64,000 nucleotides of DNA from NCBI RefSeq assembly GCF_018122735.1, contig NZ_JAGRRD010000001.1, forward strand, positions 4,326,615-4,390,614, in the 5' to 3' direction. The position numbers were made by a program, and so were the translations under genes. The notes beneath the pieces were generated by a model. It did no database searches. It was not told the DNA's origin and saw only the letters and a program-made list of their open reading frames with translations. This DNA comes from Azoarcus sp. L1K30 (GTDB taxonomy: Bacteria > Pseudomonadota > Gammaproteobacteria > Burkholderiales > Rhodocyclaceae). Of the stretch, positions 9,986 to 44,128 are shown piece after piece; position 1 is the stretch's first letter, and every line of letters begins with the position of its first letter.

Positions 9986-10267
9986 TCAGGAAGGGTGGCA
10001 GGCGCAACTGCCGCCGCACGCGGGCGCGCTGCCGGCATCGGACGATGCGTTGGTGCCGGTGGCCGCAGCAGAGGTGGTCTTGCCGCCTCCCTTGAAGTCG
10101 GTCGCATACCAACCGTTGCCCTTGAGCTGGAATCCGGCCGCAGAAAGCTGCTTGACGTAGCTGGTCTTCCCGCAGGAGGGGCAGGTATCGAGCACGGGAT
10201 CGCTCATTTTCTGCAGATGTTCCTTCTGGAATCCACAGCTTTCACAACGATATTCGTAAATAGGCAT
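9986..10267 (-). CDS. FmdB-family zinc-ribbon protein
   Basis: A 93-residue protein starting MPIYEYRCESCGFQKEHLQ with a second CPSCG pair, giving the two CxxC knuckles of the FmdB/CxxC_CxxC_SSSS zinc-ribbon family within residues 7-40. The tail is Gly/Ala-rich and ends CGGSCACHPS. Members are often called regulatory proteins, but the function in aspS-linked loci is unknown. It is co-directional with the DUF502 gene, 24 bases upstream of it. Confidence 0.9.
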   Translation of the reverse strand: MPIYEYRCESCGFQKEHLQKMSDPVLDTCPSCGKTSYVKQLSAAGFQLKGNGWYATDFKGGGKTTSAAATGTNASSDAGSAPACGGSCACHPS

Positions 10268-10442
10268 GACAAGCTCCGGAAAGGCAAGTGCGCAAGTCTA
10301 ACGCAACGCAGCATAAGGAAAAAGCAAAGCGCCACGCTTTGTGGACATCGGCTCAAATGGGGGCATGTCGTCGCCAGTTCAAGGGGGCTGGCGCAAGGGG
10401 GAAGAGCACGAAATGGTCCAATGTCCGGCGCGCGGGTTGCAC

Positions 10443-10477
10443 CGCATGCACCAGACACGAATGCATCTGTGCATGCG
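10443..10477. terminator. Hairpin downstream of pilD
   Basis: CGCATGCA/TGCATGCG plus CAGA/TCTG form a 12-pair stem with a single bulged C and a roughly ten-base loop, 22 bases beyond the pilD stop on the minus strand. No T-tract follows, so it may be a weak terminator or an mRNA 3'-end stabiliser. Confidence 0.45.
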
Positions 10478-10498
10478 TAACTGTCGTGAGGTGTTCGT

Positions 10499-11350
10499 TC
10501 AGATCGTGCCCAGATAGTGACGCGTGATCGATTCGCCCCAGAACAGCGCAATGACGCCCGCGGCCGCGAGATAGGGGCCGAACGGAATGGGAACGTTGCG
10601 ACCGTGACGGGCAAACGCGATCAGGCTGATGCCGACGATGGCGCCGACCACGGAGGAGAGCAGAATGGTCAGCGGCAGTGTCTGCCAGCCGAGCCAGGCT
10701 CCGATGGCGGCAAGCAGCTTGAAGTCGCCGTATCCCATGCCTTCCTTTCCCGTCGTCAGCTTGAATAGCCAGAAAATGGACCACAAGACAAGATAGCCTG
10801 CCATGGCGCCAATCACTGCGCTCTGCAGGTCGGTATAGGTGCCCGCAATATTGAAAGCCAGCCCGAGCCACAGCAGGAGAAGGGTGATATCGTCGGGCAG
10901 CAACTGGGTGTCGAAGTCGATGAAGGTGAGCGCAATCATGGCCCACAGGAACAGCAGTGCGCCGGCGGTGGCGACACTGTAACCGAAATGCCAGGCCGCG
11001 TAACCCGAGAGCACTGCGCTCAGCGTCTCCACTATCGGGTAGCGACGGCCGATCGGTGCCGAGCAGTGGCTGCAGCGACCGCGAAGGATCACGTAGCTCA
11101 CGACCGGTATGTTCTCCAGCGCTGAAATCAGGTGCCCGCAATGGGGGCAGCGTGAGCGCGGTGCGGCCAGGTTGAAGCGCTCCGCCTCGGGCACGGGCTC
11201 GCCGCGCAACTCGGCCGCCTGCGCCAGCCATTCCTGCTCCATCATTCTGGGCAGGCGGTGGATGACCACATTGAGGAAACTGCCGACAAACAGGCCGATC
11301 AGCGTGACGAGGGGTACGAGGGCGAGCGGGTCGCGCAGCAGGTCTGACAT
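10499..11350 (-). CDS. pilD: Prepilin peptidase / N-methyltransferase
   Basis: A 283-residue A24-type aspartic protease that cleaves and N-methylates type IV prepilins in the inner membrane. It has the N-terminal domain with the zinc-type pairs CPHCGH and CSHC (about residues 70-100), about eight membrane segments, and the two catalytic aspartates in FDTQLLPDD (about 150) and GYGDFKLLAAIGAW (about 210). Third gene of the pilB-pilC-pilD run. Confidence 0.95.
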   Translation of the reverse strand: MSDLLRDPLALVPLVTLIGLFVGSFLNVVIHRLPRMMEQEWLAQAAELRGEPVPEAERFNLAAPRSRCPHCGHLISALENIPVVSYVILRGRCSHCSAPIGRRYPIVETLSAVLSGYAAWHFGYSVATAGALLFLWAMIALTFIDFDTQLLPDDITLLLLWLGLAFNIAGTYTDLQSAVIGAMAGYLVLWSIFWLFKLTTGKEGMGYGDFKLLAAIGAWLGWQTLPLTILLSSVVGAIVGISLIAFARHGRNVPIPFGPYLAAAGVIALFWGESITRHYLGTI

Positions 11351-27642: not shown

Positions 27643-27657
27643 TGGCACATAGCTTGC
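27643..27657 (+). promoter_or_regulatory. Sigma-54 promoter of nifLA
   Basis: TGGCACATAGCTTGC is an exact TGGCAC-N5-TTGC. It lies 35 bases before the chosen nifL start (27693) and inside the longer alternative reading frame, which supports the shorter start. Confidence 0.92.
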
Positions 27658-34602: not shown

Positions 34603-34663
34603 AAGTGCTCTGGCGTTGTGAAGAAAATCCAATAAAAACAGTGTGCTGAATATCCTCTAGTGC

Positions 34664-34678
34664 TGGCACGCGGATTGC
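34664..34678 (+). promoter_or_regulatory. Sigma-54 promoter of the nifB operon
   Basis: TGGCACGCGGATTGC is an exact TGGCAC-N5-TTGC, 38 bases upstream of the preferred nifB ATG and after two NifA sites. Confidence 0.94.
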
Positions 34679-34716
34679 AGAAGTATCCGCGTCAGACATC
34701 TATTAGGGGATTGATG

Positions 34717-36228
34717 ATGGAACTCCCGGTCATTAGCAATGCCGCGCCTCCGAGTGGAGGGGGCGGGTGCAGTGAAAGTGGTTGTGGCACCGAACCGGAT
34801 GCGTTGTCGCATCTGCCCGATCACATCCGCAGCAAAGTGCAGGACCACCCCTGTTATTCGGAGGAGGCTCATCACTACTTTGCCCGCATGCACGTTGCCG
34901 TCGCACCGGCCTGTAACATCCAGTGCAACTACTGCAACCGCAAGTACGACTGTTCCAACGAATCCCGTCCGGGCGTCGTGTCGGAACTGATGACGCCCGA
35001 TCAGGCGGTCAAGAAGACACTCGCTGTGGCGGCCGCGATTCCGCAGATGACGGTACTCGGCATCGCCGGACCCGGCGACCCACTTGCCAACCCGGAGCGC
35101 ACCTTCGAGACTTTCCGTCAGCTTTCGGAACAGGCGCCCGACATCAAGCTCTGTGTTTCGACCAATGGTCTGTCGCTACCGGACTGTGTGGACGAGCTGG
35201 CGAAGCACAACATCGACCACGTCACCATCACGATCAACTGTGTCGATCCCGAGATTGGCGCCAAGATCTATCCCTGGATCTTCTGGGAGAACAAGCGCAT
35301 CCGTGGTGTGGAAGGCGCGAAAATCCTGATCGAGCAGCAGCAAAAGGGGCTTGAGATGCTCACCAGTCGCGGCATTCTGGTGAAGGTGAATTCGGTGATG
35401 ATTCCGGGGGTCAACGACCAGCACCTCAAGGAAGTGTCGAAGATCGTCAAGGCCAAGGGTGCCTTCCTGCACAACGTGATGCCGCTGATCGCCGAAGCCG
35501 AACACGGTACCTACTACGGCATCATGGGCCAGCCCGAGCCAACCCCGCTCGAACTGCAGGCGCTGCAGGACGACTGTTCCGGCGACATGTCGATGATGCG
35601 TCATTGCCGCCAGTGCCGTGCCGATGCGGTCGGCCTGCTGGGCGAGGACCGCGGCGACGAGTTCACGCTGGACAAGATCGACGAGATGGAGGTCGATTAC
35701 GCCACCGCCATGGTCGAGCGTGCCAAGGTGCATGAAGCGATCACCACCGAGCTCGAGATGAAGCGCGCGCTCAAGGCTGCCCCCAAGTTCAATCCGGATG
35801 CGCCGCTCGAGGACGAAGCCGTGCCCGCGACCCGCAACATCCGCATCGCGATTGCGACCAAGGGCGGCGGGGTGATCAACGAGCATTTCGGTCATGCGCA
35901 CGAGTTCCTGGTGTACGAGATCGGTCCGAAGGAGCATCGCTTCCTGGGTCACCGCAAATGCACGCCGTACTGCATGGGCGACGAGTCCTGTGGCGACGGG
36001 GAGACCGTGCTCGGCGGCATCATCAGGTCGCTCGAGGGGGTCGAGGTTCTGCTTGCGAGCAAGATCGGCTTCGAGCCCTGGGCCGATCTCGAAAAGGCGG
36101 GTATCCAGCCCAATGGCGAGCATGCAATGGAGCCGATCGAGGACGCGATCCGTGCGGTGTATGACGAGATGGCGGCCGCTGGCAAGCTCGCGCTGCCGCG
36201 CGCGGACAGTGCGGCACAGGCCGCCTGA
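34717..36228 (+). CDS. nifB: Nitrogenase cofactor biosynthesis protein NifB
   Basis: A 503-residue radical-SAM enzyme that fuses two 4Fe-4S clusters and inserts carbide to make NifB-co, the precursor of FeMo-co. The SAM cluster motif CNIQCNYC lies near residues 66-73, with AGPGDPLANPERTFET near 117 and further Cys/His cluster ligands at the N-terminus (CSESGCG). The C-terminal NifX/NifY-like domain (about 375-490, RIAIATKGGGVINEHFGHA) is of the two-domain NifB type. An AGGGGA site precedes ATG 34717; ATG 34714 is adjacent. First gene of a sigma-54/NifA operon ending with draG. Confidence 0.97.
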   Translation: MELPVISNAAPPSGGGGCSESGCGTEPDALSHLPDHIRSKVQDHPCYSEEAHHYFARMHVAVAPACNIQCNYCNRKYDCSNESRPGVVSELMTPDQAVKKTLAVAAAIPQMTVLGIAGPGDPLANPERTFETFRQLSEQAPDIKLCVSTNGLSLPDCVDELAKHNIDHVTITINCVDPEIGAKIYPWIFWENKRIRGVEGAKILIEQQQKGLEMLTSRGILVKVNSVMIPGVNDQHLKEVSKIVKAKGAFLHNVMPLIAEAEHGTYYGIMGQPEPTPLELQALQDDCSGDMSMMRHCRQCRADAVGLLGEDRGDEFTLDKIDEMEVDYATAMVERAKVHEAITTELEMKRALKAAPKFNPDAPLEDEAVPATRNIRIAIATKGGGVINEHFGHAHEFLVYEIGPKEHRFLGHRKCTPYCMGDESCGDGETVLGGIIRSLEGVEVLLASKIGFEPWADLEKAGIQPNGEHAMEPIEDAIRAVYDEMAAAGKLALPRADSAAQAA

Positions 36229-39646: not shown

Positions 39647-40599
39647 GTGCTGCGCCCGCGCAAGGACATGCCGTGGCGCGCGACGATGGCGGCGCGTTGG
39701 CGGATCGCGCACGGGGGGCCATGCTGGGCCTCGCGATCGGCGATGCGCTGGGGGCGACGGTCGAGTTCATGACGCCGCGCGAGATCAGTGCCCAGTACGG
39801 TGTGCATGAGCGGATCTGCGGTGGCGGCTGGCTGCGGCTCGAGGCCGGTGAAGTGACGGATGACACGACGATGACGCTCGCGCTCGGTGAGGCGTGGTTG
39901 CGTGCGCGCGGCGTGCCGGATGCCGAAGCCTGTGCGCAGGCATTCGATGCCTGGATGCGCGCAAAGCCGGTCGATATCGGAAATACCGTGCGCCGCGGTA
40001 TCGTGCGTTGGCGCCTGAGCGGCAGCACGGAGGCGCCGCTGTCATCGGATGCGGGCAATGGCGCCACCATGCGTTGCCTGCCGGTTGCGCTGGCGTGTCT
40101 GGGGGCGGCGCAGCAGGTCACCGCATACGCGGCCCTGGTGCAGGCTCGGGTGACCCACAACAATCCTCTGACTGATGTGGCGACCTTGTGCGTTGTGGAT
40201 ATGGTGCAGAGCGCACTGTTAGGGGCCGGTCAGCACGCCATCGTCGAACGTGCCGAGATGCTCGCAGCGCAATGTCCGGAGTTCGACTTCCACGGGCGTC
40301 ATTGTGACAATCCCAGCGGTTACATCGTCGACACCATGCGCGCGGTATGTCAGTCGATGGCGCGTCACGACGGCTTTCGCGCGGTACTGACCGATGTCGT
40401 CAATCGTGGTGGAGATGCGGATACGACAGGCGCGATCGCCGGCATGGTGATGGGCGCGTTGTGCGGGGAACGGGCCTTGCCCCCGGCGTGGGTGGGCGCG
40501 CTGCGGCCCACGGTGCGCGCGGCATGCATTTCGATGGCGACCGGGCTGATCGAACTCGCGCCCCTGTGTTATCCACAGCCGACCAGATCCGTGATCTGA
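39643..40599 (+). CDS. draG: ADP-ribosyl-dinitrogenase reductase glycohydrolase DraG
   Basis: A 318-residue ADP-ribosylglycohydrolase that removes ADP-ribose from the NifH arginine and so reactivates nitrogenase. It has GAMLGLAIGDALGATVEF (about residues 25-42), the Mn-binding TDDTTM (near 70) and NRGGDADTTGAIAGMVMGAL (about 257-276). The GTG at 39643 overlaps the nifQ stop (GTGA) and gives nearly the usual family length. Last gene of the nifB operon; its partner draT is in a different, divergent operon 1.6 kb away. Confidence 0.94.
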   Translation: MSAAPAQGHAVARDDGGALADRARGAMLGLAIGDALGATVEFMTPREISAQYGVHERICGGGWLRLEAGEVTDDTTMTLALGEAWLRARGVPDAEACAQAFDAWMRAKPVDIGNTVRRGIVRWRLSGSTEAPLSSDAGNGATMRCLPVALACLGAAQQVTAYAALVQARVTHNNPLTDVATLCVVDMVQSALLGAGQHAIVERAEMLAAQCPEFDFHGRHCDNPSGYIVDTMRAVCQSMARHDGFRAVLTDVVNRGGDADTTGAIAGMVMGALCGERALPPAWVGALRPTVRAACISMATGLIELAPLCYPQPTRSVI

Positions 40600-40707: not shown

Positions 40708-41103
40708 TCAGGCGGATTCGCGTAGCTTGCGCAGATGCGCAGCGAGTGCGGCATCCATTGTCGATAGATGCAAGTCGAACCATTCGGGCATGTTCTCGCG
40801 AACGTAGGCGCGCGCCACCATCAGCCTGCCGCCCTGGACGCTGCGATTGAAGGCCCGCAGTTCGGCAAGCACGCGCTGGTGTTCGCCGATGTGCTCGCCG
40901 GTTGCGGCAAACCGGCTGCTACGCATCAAGGCATCTTCTGCTGCAAAATGGCTGCGGCAGTGATCGAGCAGCTCGGCGAAGAGGGTCTTGAATGCTGCGT
41001 CGTCGGCTTCGCCCAGCGCAGAGACGAGGCCGATGAATGCCTGGTGGGTCGCATCCATCTCGTCAACGCCGAGTGCGTGGCGAGCCTCGTCCCATGCCGC
41101 CAT
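40708..41103 (-). CDS. Bacteriohemerythrin
   Basis: A 131-residue single-domain hemerythrin. All seven di-iron ligands appear: His in DATHQAF, His and Glu in SHFAAEDALM, two His in HIGEHQ, and His plus Asp in HLSTMDAAL. Such proteins bind O2 reversibly for storage, delivery or sensing. ATG 41103 overlaps the end of the upstream SIR2-like gene, which indicates translational coupling. Third gene of the draT operon. Confidence 0.94.
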   Translation of the reverse strand: MAAWDEARHALGVDEMDATHQAFIGLVSALGEADDAAFKTLFAELLDHCRSHFAAEDALMRSSRFAATGEHIGEHQRVLAELRAFNRSVQGGRLMVARAYVRENMPEWFDLHLSTMDAALAAHLRKLRESA

Positions 41104-41105
41104 GC

Positions 41106-41951
41106 TCAGGCGGCCTCCGTGACCGGCAGTTCGGCGAGTTCGCGCCAGTCGGCATCGACGACTTCCAGCCCGATGCGGGCGCAGAAGCGCTTTTCCTTGT
41201 CGTTGGCGCCGGGGATCAGTGCCCAGCCGGCGGGTTGGCTTGCCCCATAGATGAAATCGGCGAGGATCATGCGGATGGTGTCGCGATTGAGGCGGGCACC
41301 CATGACGAGGTAGCGCAAGCCCTGGCGGCGTTCCTTGAGGTAGGGGGGAATGGCGAAGCCGCCCATCAGTTCGGTGATGTAGTCGACGAAGTCGGCATCC
41401 GAGGCGATCCAGTTGGGCTCGGGCCACGGCGTACCACAGGGCTTGAACAGGATAGGGGCCTTGGGATCGATACCGCTCTCGTCTCCGACGGCCGCATAGG
41501 ACGCACCGTCGTGGCGAAACAGCTTGTAGCGCAGGCCCCCAGCGATGCGGGCGATGCCGACGATCAGCGTGTGGGGGCGGGTTGACCAGGCCTGCTGCAG
41601 GCCAGTGTCGCGGTTGAGGTCGATGATGTAGGGCAGGTTCAGCGAGTTGAGCCATCCGTGCATCGCTGCCTGTGACCAGCCTGTGTCGGCATAGATGGTG
41701 TCGAGTGCGCGGTTGACGGTGCTGCGACCGCGCTTGAGTTCGATATTCATCGCTGCGCGCGGGAACTCGTACATCAGCCGAGGCGCCATCGGCTGGCCGT
41801 TGTTGAGTGCAAGAATGAGCTCGTCGCTGGTGGCCGGGATTTTTGCACCGGTCTTGAGATGGCTGACATCGGCAAGCGCATCGGCGCCGATGAAGGGCAC
41901 CACTTCACCGGCAGCAAGGCCGGCGCGGATCTGGTCGAAGACGGTCGTCAT
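41106..41951 (-). CDS. SIR2-like protein in the draT operon
   Basis: A 281-residue protein with a degenerate SIR2-type start: GEVVPFIGADALADV (about residues 15-29) resembles the NAD-binding PFIGAG motif, and YIIDLNRDTGLQQAW (about 112-126) resembles the TTNYD-like strand of SIR2_2 domains. The C-terminal half (KAPILFKPCGTPWPEPNW, then RYLVMGARLNRDTIRMIL) fits no enzyme I recognise. No signal peptide or membrane segment. It lies between draT and the hemerythrin, so a link to NAD-dependent ADP-ribosylation of NifH is suggested by context alone. Confidence 0.75.
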   Translation of the reverse strand: MTTVFDQIRAGLAAGEVVPFIGADALADVSHLKTGAKIPATSDELILALNNGQPMAPRLMYEFPRAAMNIELKRGRSTVNRALDTIYADTGWSQAAMHGWLNSLNLPYIIDLNRDTGLQQAWSTRPHTLIVGIARIAGGLRYKLFRHDGASYAAVGDESGIDPKAPILFKPCGTPWPEPNWIASDADFVDYITELMGGFAIPPYLKERRQGLRYLVMGARLNRDTIRMILADFIYGASQPAGWALIPGANDKEKRFCARIGLEVVDADWRELAELPVTEAA

Positions 41952-42197
41952 GAGGCTTCCTTGTGGTTGCTGGGCGCGTACTTCGCGACTTCCCCCTTGT
42001 CCAGCAAGATCGGTGCCATCGCTGCAACGCGTCGCACTGGCCCGTACTCAGCGGCCCCCGGTATATCGCAGTGCCTGATTTGGTCGCATCTGTCGTGCGG
42101 CGGACATGCCAATGTTCGACTTCCGACAAGAGGCCGGCGTCATGTGCCATCCCCGGTCGACATTCAGTCCGGCAGGGGCGTGCCGGGCCCCCTGCGC

Positions 42198-43004
42198 TCA
42201 GCACTCGAACCGAACCGCTGCCACGCCGCCAATCACCAGGTACTCGCTTTCCCCCTGGAGCAGACCGGGCATGAGGCCGCTGAAGGCCAGAATCTTCGCC
42301 ATCGGGGTGGCGCACGAAAATACATGGTCACCGAACTCGTCTGCGCGGTCCCTGCTCCCGGAAAAGGAACTGAGGTTGTTCAGTTCGACCAGTTGCCGGC
42401 CGTCATCAAGGGTGTTCAGTGTCCGCAGCCCACCGGTGTTGGAAACGCCGCGGTAGAGCAGCAGGTGTGTCTGCCCGGCGTGTCGGCGCGCAAGTTCATA
42501 TTGTGTCCACGCGTACAACAAGTCGACCTGCGCCTCGAGTGCTGCGGTGGCATACAGGCCGGCGGCAACCTCGTGGTCGAAATCCTCACGTGATCTTTCG
42601 TCCTCGTCTGCCAGGGTGCCGCGATGGAAGCGGGTGAGCAGGCCGAAGCGGGACTCCACCCAGGCCTTGAGAATGGCGCCCTCACGCCGTTCCGCGTCAA
42701 ACAGCCAGCCTCGCAGCAGACGCAGGTAGTCCATCTTGCTGCGATCTACGCGCGCACTTTTCGACATGCCCAGTGCGGGCGGGTCGTCGAGCATGAAATG
42801 CGCGTTCATATAGGTGCGGAACAGCTGTGCTCTCGCGGCGGGCTGATCGAGGGCGTCGAGCCGATCAAACAGCGGTTGATGCAGTGGCTGGACGCCATCG
42901 AGCGTCAGCGCACACGGCGCAAGCTGGAAGGCGAAGCTGCCAAGTGCTTCGGCTGGCAGGCTGCAGCGGTTCAGGGCGCGTCGTCCGCGCGGCGGAATCG
43001 TCAT
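42198..43004 (-). CDS. draT: NAD+-dinitrogen-reductase ADP-ribosyltransferase DraT
   Basis: A 268-residue mono-ADP-ribosyltransferase that inactivates NifH by modifying one arginine when ammonia rises or energy falls. The R-S-ExE pattern of arginine-specific transferases is visible: Arg in LLYRGVSNTGG, Ser in NNLSSFSGS, and GESEYLVIGG near the C-terminus. MNAHFMLDDPP and WVESRFGLLTRFHRG are further family segments. ATG 43004 is preferred to a TTG at 43100, which would put coding sequence over the nifH activator site. Divergent from nifH. A 246-base gap separates it from the SIR2-like gene. Confidence 0.93.
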   Translation of the reverse strand: MTIPPRGRRALNRCSLPAEALGSFAFQLAPCALTLDGVQPLHQPLFDRLDALDQPAARAQLFRTYMNAHFMLDDPPALGMSKSARVDRSKMDYLRLLRGWLFDAERREGAILKAWVESRFGLLTRFHRGTLADEDERSREDFDHEVAAGLYATAALEAQVDLLYAWTQYELARRHAGQTHLLLYRGVSNTGGLRTLNTLDDGRQLVELNNLSSFSGSRDRADEFGDHVFSCATPMAKILAFSGLMPGLLQGESEYLVIGGVAAVRFEC

Positions 43005-43036: not shown

Positions 43037-43052
43037 TGTTGTCGGCCCTACA
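43037..43052. promoter_or_regulatory. NifA upstream activator site of nifH
   Basis: TGTTGTCGGCCCTACA is an exact TGT-N10-ACA, about 118 bases before the nifH -12 element. Confidence 0.8.
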
Positions 43053-43149: not shown

Positions 43150-43164
43150 TGGCACGCTCATTGC
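43150..43164 (+). promoter_or_regulatory. Sigma-54 promoter of nifHDK
   Basis: TGGCACGCTCATTGC is an exact TGGCAC-N5-TTGC, 70 bases before the nifH ATG. Confidence 0.95.

Positions 43165-43228: not shown

Positions 43229-44128
<900 letters not shown>

Follow-up and report, generated by a model that had tools for sequence, protein, structure and literature searches.

A predicted SIR2 fold without the catalytic histidine, encoded beside a hemerythrin in the nif cluster of Azoarcus sp. L1K30

What does a SIR2-like gene do when it lies between draT, the gene for the NifH ADP-ribosyltransferase, and a hemerythrin gene, close to nifH? The question is raised by a 64,000-nucleotide stretch of the Azoarcus sp. 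L1K30 genome (contig NZ_JAGRRD010000001.1, positions 4,326,615 to 4,390,614), here called the window. An earlier note, made from this DNA without database searches, had read the three genes as one operon and as an undescribed module in which NAD state and oxygen shut off nitrogenase, with the SIR2-like protein controlling NAD supply or DraT activity. We arrive at a different answer. The gene follows nif and not draT, its product is predicted to have a full SIR2 fold, and the catalytic histidine is missing. By position and regulation it is probably pnfA, a nif gene that has been described but not explained. With a probability of roughly 0.55, the PnfA-like protein and the hemerythrin form a unit of their own, in which a non-catalytic SIR2 fold supports nitrogenase post-transcriptionally and the hemerythrin is its partner.

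Distribution of the SIR2-like gene

Among 300 genomes of the source order, 48 carried the SIR2-like gene, 46 had a nifH match over the cut-off and 35 had a match to DRAT, the family of DraT. Both nifH and the SIR2-like gene were present in 45 genomes, nifH only in 1 (G132), the SIR2-like gene only in 3 (G030, G135 and G161) and neither in 251. The gene thus occurred in 45 of 46 genomes with nifH versus 3 of 254 without it (Fisher p 1e-48, not corrected for kinship). A second search for nifH found a fragment in G161 and none in G030 or G135; the G030 locus has matches to nifB, nifT, draG and draT. The nif cluster of G132 (L178), the one genome of the 46 to have nifH without the SIR2-like gene, has nifH, draT and draG matches.

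A draw of genomes from the phylum gave nifH in 39 of 398 at 1e-100 (38 over the cut-off); the SIR2-like gene was present in 14 of the 39. When 396 of the phylum-draw genomes were searched with a profile, there were 17 carriers, 14 of them with nifH; the other three (G341, G366 and G538) gave no nifH match even at 1e-20. In two of these three the SIR2-like gene neighbors nifA-, nifB- and nifT-like genes; in the third it adjoins a hemerythrin gene close to the end of a contig. Plasmid records matching the SIR2-like protein numbered 72, all in six genera, which we take to include diazotrophs. The three records inspected show nif clusters, with the SIR2-like gene near nifT and nifZ.

The fit to draT was tested by the same counts. 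No DRAT match was found in 14 of the 48 carriers in the order, nor in 9 of the 14 phylum-draw genomes with both nifH and the SIR2-like gene. Among 40 tested nifH genomes (the 39 of the phylum draw and G132), 27 have DRAT, and 22 of these, G132 included, have no SIR2-like gene. Carriers without DRAT and DRAT genomes without the gene indicate that it follows nif, not DraT. Both counts speak against a reading close to that of the earlier note, in which the SIR2-like protein and the hemerythrin would sense NAD and O2 and steer DraT, with NifH ADP-ribosylated at low energy or high oxygen. A match to PF00115 (heme-copper oxidase), tried as a marker to tell nifH genomes that carry the SIR2-like gene from those that lack it, was present in 39 of the 40 and was uninformative.

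Predicted fold and the catalytic column

The score of the SIR2-like protein against SIR2_2 (PF13289) lies below the Pfam cut-off of 24.5, so the SIR2 name by itself would be weak. The SIR2_2 profile matches 25 of the 26 members of our alignment A1 at E ≤0.01, and the Rhizobium etli relative reaches 67 bits. For further comparisons we used the best 80 of at least 510 confirmed relatives, the named loci, which lean toward a branch of close relatives; one of them (L130), cut at a contig end, was left out, giving 79 aligned proteins. AlphaFold2, run on 70 sequences (alignment A2, comprising 69 of these 79 proteins and the window protein), predicts a full SIR2 fold with a pLDDT of 93.8 and a pTM of 0.92. 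Foldseek matched the model to KomC at E 6e-10 (TM 0.64), and the best VIA match was the SIR2 chain of the KomBC complex (Z 19.1, 237 residues, rmsd 3.1), with ThsA (Z 18.3), DSR2 (Z 18.0) and a Sir2 homolog-NAD structure (Z 11.9) further down. Against PDB sequences, the A1 profile found KomC at E 2e-4, and the A2 profile gave one match at chance level (E 0.67). The SIR2-type, NAD-binding start that had been noted is degenerate and reads GADAL where sirtuins have GAGxS.

The catalytic residues of sirtuins are a His and an Asn. The His column corresponds to residue 172 of the window protein, as placed by sequence alignment and not by structural superposition, and it holds a histidine in 0 of 116 relatives (L 57, M 32, I 11, C 10, F 4, T 1 and W 1); its neighbors P171 and G173 are invariant. 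Twelve further close-branch loci (L032-L043), assumed to overlap with the named genomes, are outside these 116 rows. The R. etli p42d protein, read by eye, has a Tyr in this column. The column was set by an HG-bearing SIR2 protein from a relative's genome, a 532-residue open reading frame, which aligns nearly full length (71.6 bits, E 3e-22 among 111 frames) with its K-M-H-G opposite the K-P-x-G of the nif family. That frame, at L189 (G714), has a C-terminal HG-bearing SIR2 domain and was the best-scoring HG-bearing relative encountered. The KomC profile alignment instead sets the HG at 148-149, where there is no conserved His; column 147 has a His in 27 of 116. A further residue, His98, is conserved in 113 of 116; it lies in the helix preceding the N-x-D strand, and KomC has a His there too. 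All 80 close relatives retain N113, and Trp replaces it in 35 of the 36 distant ones. Conservation in at least 115 of the 116 proteins is seen at 21 columns, which suggests a protein under constraint, though not for the usual sirtuin chemistry.

Such a column makes a deacetylase role look unlikely. A lysine deacetylase dedicated to nif, with NifA or nitrogenase as its substrate, would agree with the predicted fold, and this role has been suggested for the Zymomonas SIR2 protein ZMO1821, in an organism with acetylated nitrogenase and NifA and induced ZMO1821 (PMC8600466, cited, like all papers below, from excerpts). With no His in any of the 116 and a Tyr in R. etli p42d, we consider it quite improbable for the present family; ZMO1821 itself stands outside the comparison. 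For the same reason the SIR2-like protein is unlikely to control NAD supply by catalysis. The closest folds, the SIR2 domains of KomC, ThsA and DSR2, would also suit an NAD-depleting phage-defense device taken over by nif clusters with its NAD hydrolysis intact. The His is lost, PADLOC matched none of the three proteins (DraT, the SIR2-like protein and the hemerythrin), and NifA-driven expression of such a device during N2 fixation would amount to self-poisoning, all of which makes such a still active device highly improbable.

Genes, promoter sites and neighborhoods

The features of the locus are collected in Table 1. The earlier note had draT, the SIR2-like gene and the hemerythrin gene on one strand with draT divergent from nifH, and family searches bear this out. 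draT is the sole DRAT match in the source genome. NCBIfam gave no match for DraT or the SIR2-like protein, and the best named relative of the latter (86%) comes from an Azoarcus metagenome-assembled genome. The claim of a complete O2-binding hemerythrin likewise stands: both family scores exceed their cut-offs, and all ligands of what we take to be the seven-ligand iron pattern are present (H20, H52, E56, H71, H75, H112 and D117), each kept in all relatives covering its column (49/49 or 50/50). At 61.3 bits the protein falls short of the curated cut-off of 84 for bacteriohemerythrin NF033749, and so it is named hemerythrin only. Overlap of the last two genes did not hold up, since the SIR2-like stop TGA (41108-41106) and the hemerythrin ATG (41103-41101) are 2 bp apart if the latter is the start. 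The earlier note had also missed draG, which is convergent with the hemerythrin gene and preceded by nifQ.

Table 1. Genes and candidate promoter sites around the SIR2-like gene, in window coordinates
Feature	Position	Strand	Evidence
draT, NifH ADP-ribosyltransferase, 268 aa	42198..43004	-	PF07357 293.9 bits, 1.1e-87 (cut-off 25)
PnfA-like protein of predicted SIR2 fold, 281 aa, Cys172 in the catalytic His column	41106..41951	-	SIR2_2 21.9 bits
Hemerythrin, 131 aa	40708..41103	-	PF01814 34 bits (cut-off 25.3); TIGR02481 60.8 bits (cut-off 51.75)
draG, ADP-ribosyl-dinitrogenase-reductase hydrolase, start approximate	~39679..40599	+	TIGR02662 342.2 bits (cut-off 337.05); PF03747
nifH	43235..44128	+	TIGR01287 475.8 bits; divergent from draT
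Sigma54 (-24/-12) site, TGGCAC-N5-TTGC	42004..42018	-	Perfect match; ~53 bp before the SIR2-like ATG
NifA upstream activator-type site, TGT-N10-ACA	42091..42106		Pattern match; paired with the -24/-12 site
Second NifA upstream activator-type site, TGT-N10-ACA	42113..42128		Pattern match; paired with the -24/-12 site
nifH promoter, sigma54 site	43150-43164
nifH promoter, activator-type site	43037-43052

One perfect sigma54 site and two NifA-type sites lie in the 246 bp that separate draT from the SIR2-like gene, and a single operon with draT, as the earlier note had it, is for that reason doubtful. Perfect -24/-12 sites number 4 in the window against 0.23 expected, and none of 100 shuffles reached four; the other three lie at the called starts of a nifL-like reading frame and of nifB and before nifH. 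The NifA-type pattern, at 11 against 7.5 expected, is not enriched and is weak evidence when taken alone. No -24/-12 site with one mismatch or fewer was found upstream of draT on its own strand. Upstream regions of the SIR2-like genes, with 350 bases obtained for 78 of the 79 named loci, were compared with first-order Markov sequences, the related loci not being independent of one another. A sigma54 site with up to one mismatch occurred in 33 of 79 regions (1.2 expected) and was lacking in the other 46, a perfect site occurred in 6 (0.06 expected), and the sigma54 and NifA-type pair occurred in 11, the window included, and in none of 50 control rounds.

Two of the sigma54 sites also touch gene calls elsewhere in the window. 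The nifB reading frame (34660-36228), called from a GTG at 34660, overlaps the perfect site at 34664-34678, so the true nifB start is probably further downstream. Between 27549 and 30799, tandem frames encode a NifL-like protein of PAS/HATPase type and a NifA-like one of GAF/sigma54-activator type, with the perfect site at 27643 inside the first called frame.

In Azoarcus BH72, draT is followed by azo0536 and dcrH1, the latter presumably a hemerythrin gene, to judge from its name. Predicted RpoN and NifA sites are given for azo0536 (PMC3916325), and under N2-fixing conditions azo0536 and dcrH1 were induced and draT was unresponsive (PMC8467165). A common polycistronic mRNA of the three had been proposed earlier (PMC8467165), which, with the order nifH-draT-SIR2-hemerythrin in Azoarcus relatives, favors the steering of DraT described above. 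The BH72 response, the promoter sites of the pair itself and the uneven overlap with DRAT weigh on the other side, as does Pseudomonas stutzeri A1501, which shows a phenotype for this gene yet is described as having no DraT/DraG (excerpts of PMC2820453); we consider the steering of DraT improbable. Read-through from draT may still occur, and we favor, as part of the explanation given at the outset, a NifA/sigma54-driven two-gene unit that could be transcribed apart from draT. In Rhodobacter capsulatus a SIR2 protein listed beside NifT was not found in the nifA mutant (PMC6925177, table).

Two branches of relatives differ in their surroundings. Members of the close branch (identity at least 56%; 13 of the 48 carriers in the order) have nifH and draT nearby and often a hemerythrin gene. 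Of the 80 named loci, viewed over retrieved stretches of varying length, 51 had a hemerythrin match, 47 a DraT match and 43 a NifH match. A hemerythrin gene follows the SIR2-like gene on the same strand within 700 bp in 46 of 78 loci; DraT lies upstream of it by no more than 1.5 kb in 24 of 71, and nifH is divergently upstream in 31 of the 54 named loci that reach far enough. The earlier note had called for a neighborhood survey of the trio. The order nifH, draT, SIR2-like, hemerythrin, draG does recur, as in Azoarcus indigens (L085, with a wider gap between hemerythrin and draG), but DraT upstream and hemerythrin downstream within these distances are found together in only 12 of 70 judgeable loci. 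The distant branch (23-31% identity) also has nif surroundings, often near nifT and nifB; on R. etli p42d they comprise fix genes, nifA, nifB, nifZ, nifT and the SIR2 gene. In Rhodovulum a SIR2-like gene follows nifT (PMC9412634, figure legend). Two loci had features of their own. On Paraburkholderia pBN1 (L208) a group II truncated hemoglobin gene, encoding a further O2-binding protein in a SIR2-like neighborhood, lies between the SIR2 gene and nifH (10155-10574), and at L083 the SIR2-like match is followed 2.5 kb further downstream by another one, perhaps a duplicated gene.

Role in nitrogen fixation and known systems

In P. stutzeri A1501, pnfA (PST1325) is divergent from nifH and was shown to be NifA/sigma54-dependent (PMC2820453). 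Its reported homologs include those of BH72 (55%), Dechloromonas (54%) and others, with none in Klebsiella, and excerpts of that paper place them in diazotrophs only. PST_1325 is elsewhere labelled a SIR2 family protein (PMC11332353). From position, regulation and these relatives we infer that the window gene is pnfA. A search of the open-licence literature found no description of PnfA as a sirtuin without the catalytic His, a weak negative, as the name pnfA was not among the terms searched. At 0.5% O2, a non-polar pnfA mutant had 23% of wild-type nitrogenase activity with nifH transcription unchanged, and its activity when respiring nitrate anaerobically was far below that of the wild type; the authors proposed a role in electron transfer or oxygen protection (PMC2820453). 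For the proposed shut-off module, the link to nif, the effect on nitrogenase activity at low O2 in A1501, the predicted SIR2 fold, the frequent downstream hemerythrin and the recurring gene order remain, and the DraT-centered reading is weak.

A nucleotide would be the natural ligand of a SIR2 pocket. In the explanation we prefer, the SIR2-like protein would have retained the SIR2 fold of antiphage NADases and lost the catalytic His, and would most likely bind a nucleotide or a protein partner, without NAD cleavage or deacetylation. It would act post-transcriptionally to keep nitrogenase active during respiration of low O2 or nitrate, with the hemerythrin, in the close branch, as an O2-binding or O2-buffering partner. 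The pnfA phenotype, clear when O2 or nitrate is respired, is compatible with a sensor of some respiratory product or with a factor that aids electron flow to nitrogenase. Alternatively, the protein may be a nitrogenase maturation or stabilizing factor that uses the SIR2 fold as a scaffold and binds no nucleotide. The recurrent proximity of the distant branch to nifT, the nifT and nifZ neighbors on the three inspected plasmids and the 21 conserved columns are consistent with this, but a maturation defect does not predict that mutant and wild type are alike under argon, though wild-type activity is low there (PMC2820453), and we find it possible but doubtful. As a broader and tentative extension of the preferred explanation, non-catalytic sirtuins derived from antiphage NADases could be diazotroph-specific sensors that use the former active-site pocket to read NAD(H), ADP-ribose or some other nucleotide and gate electron supply to nitrogenase, or its protection, during respiration, with hemerythrin as the O2 partner in one branch.

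Several points weigh against a respiratory role of a non-catalytic PnfA-hemerythrin pair. One lost residue does not prove inactivity, and the Asn is kept in all close relatives. Of the 40 tested nifH genomes, 26 do without the SIR2-like gene, 22 of them with DRAT, so nitrogen fixation does not require it. A hemerythrin match was found in 1 of 36 distant-branch stretches, on the opposite strand, and the hemerythrin may be merely a neighbor. The distant branch may be the second subfamily (20% identity) of the PnfA paper, possibly with a different function; under argon, where wild-type activity is itself much lower, the pnfA mutant equals the wild type, and it still grows without fixed nitrogen (PMC2820453). 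Orthology with the A1501 gene is indirect, resting on the 55% identity of the BH72 homolog, on position and on the SIR2 label.

The gene is found in nearly every sampled nifH genome of the order, and in one species 77% of nitrogenase activity at 0.5% O2 depends on its apparent counterpart. Recognizing a predicted sirtuin fold that lacks the catalytic His shifts attention away from deacetylation and NAD cleavage and toward ligand binding, and the hemerythrin partner directs it to oxygen. The gene bears on the means by which an O2-sensitive enzyme stays active during respiration, and on the choice of genes when nif clusters are transferred to new hosts.

Among the closest known systems is A1501 PnfA. 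Like it, the window gene is near and divergent from nifH, has NifA/sigma54 promoter sites and encodes a protein of about 31 kDa; unlike A1501, the window locus has DraT/DraG and a hemerythrin gene paired with the SIR2-like gene. The PnfA paper compared its protein with UspA and the electron transfer flavoprotein (ETF), not with SIR2 (PMC2820453). The BH72 genes draT, azo0536 and dcrH1 stand in the order seen in the window, with both genes after draT induced under N2 fixation, a likeness based on gene order and the published description (PMC8467165). ZMO1821 of Zymomonas mobilis and Rcc03262 of Rhodobacter capsulatus are SIR2-annotated, lie in nif clusters and are induced or NifA-dependent (PMC8600466, PMC6925177); they resemble the window protein by description, and the Zymomonas authors report finding no DraT (PMC8600466). 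With the SIR2 domains of KomC, ThsA and DSR2 the window protein shares a predicted SIR2-like fold over its whole length (Z 18-19, about 235 residues) at 11-16% identity, but KomC and DSR2 have the catalytic His, at H146 and H171, the residues changed in the KomC H146N and DSR2 H171A mutants named in PDB entries, and the SIR2-like protein lacks it.

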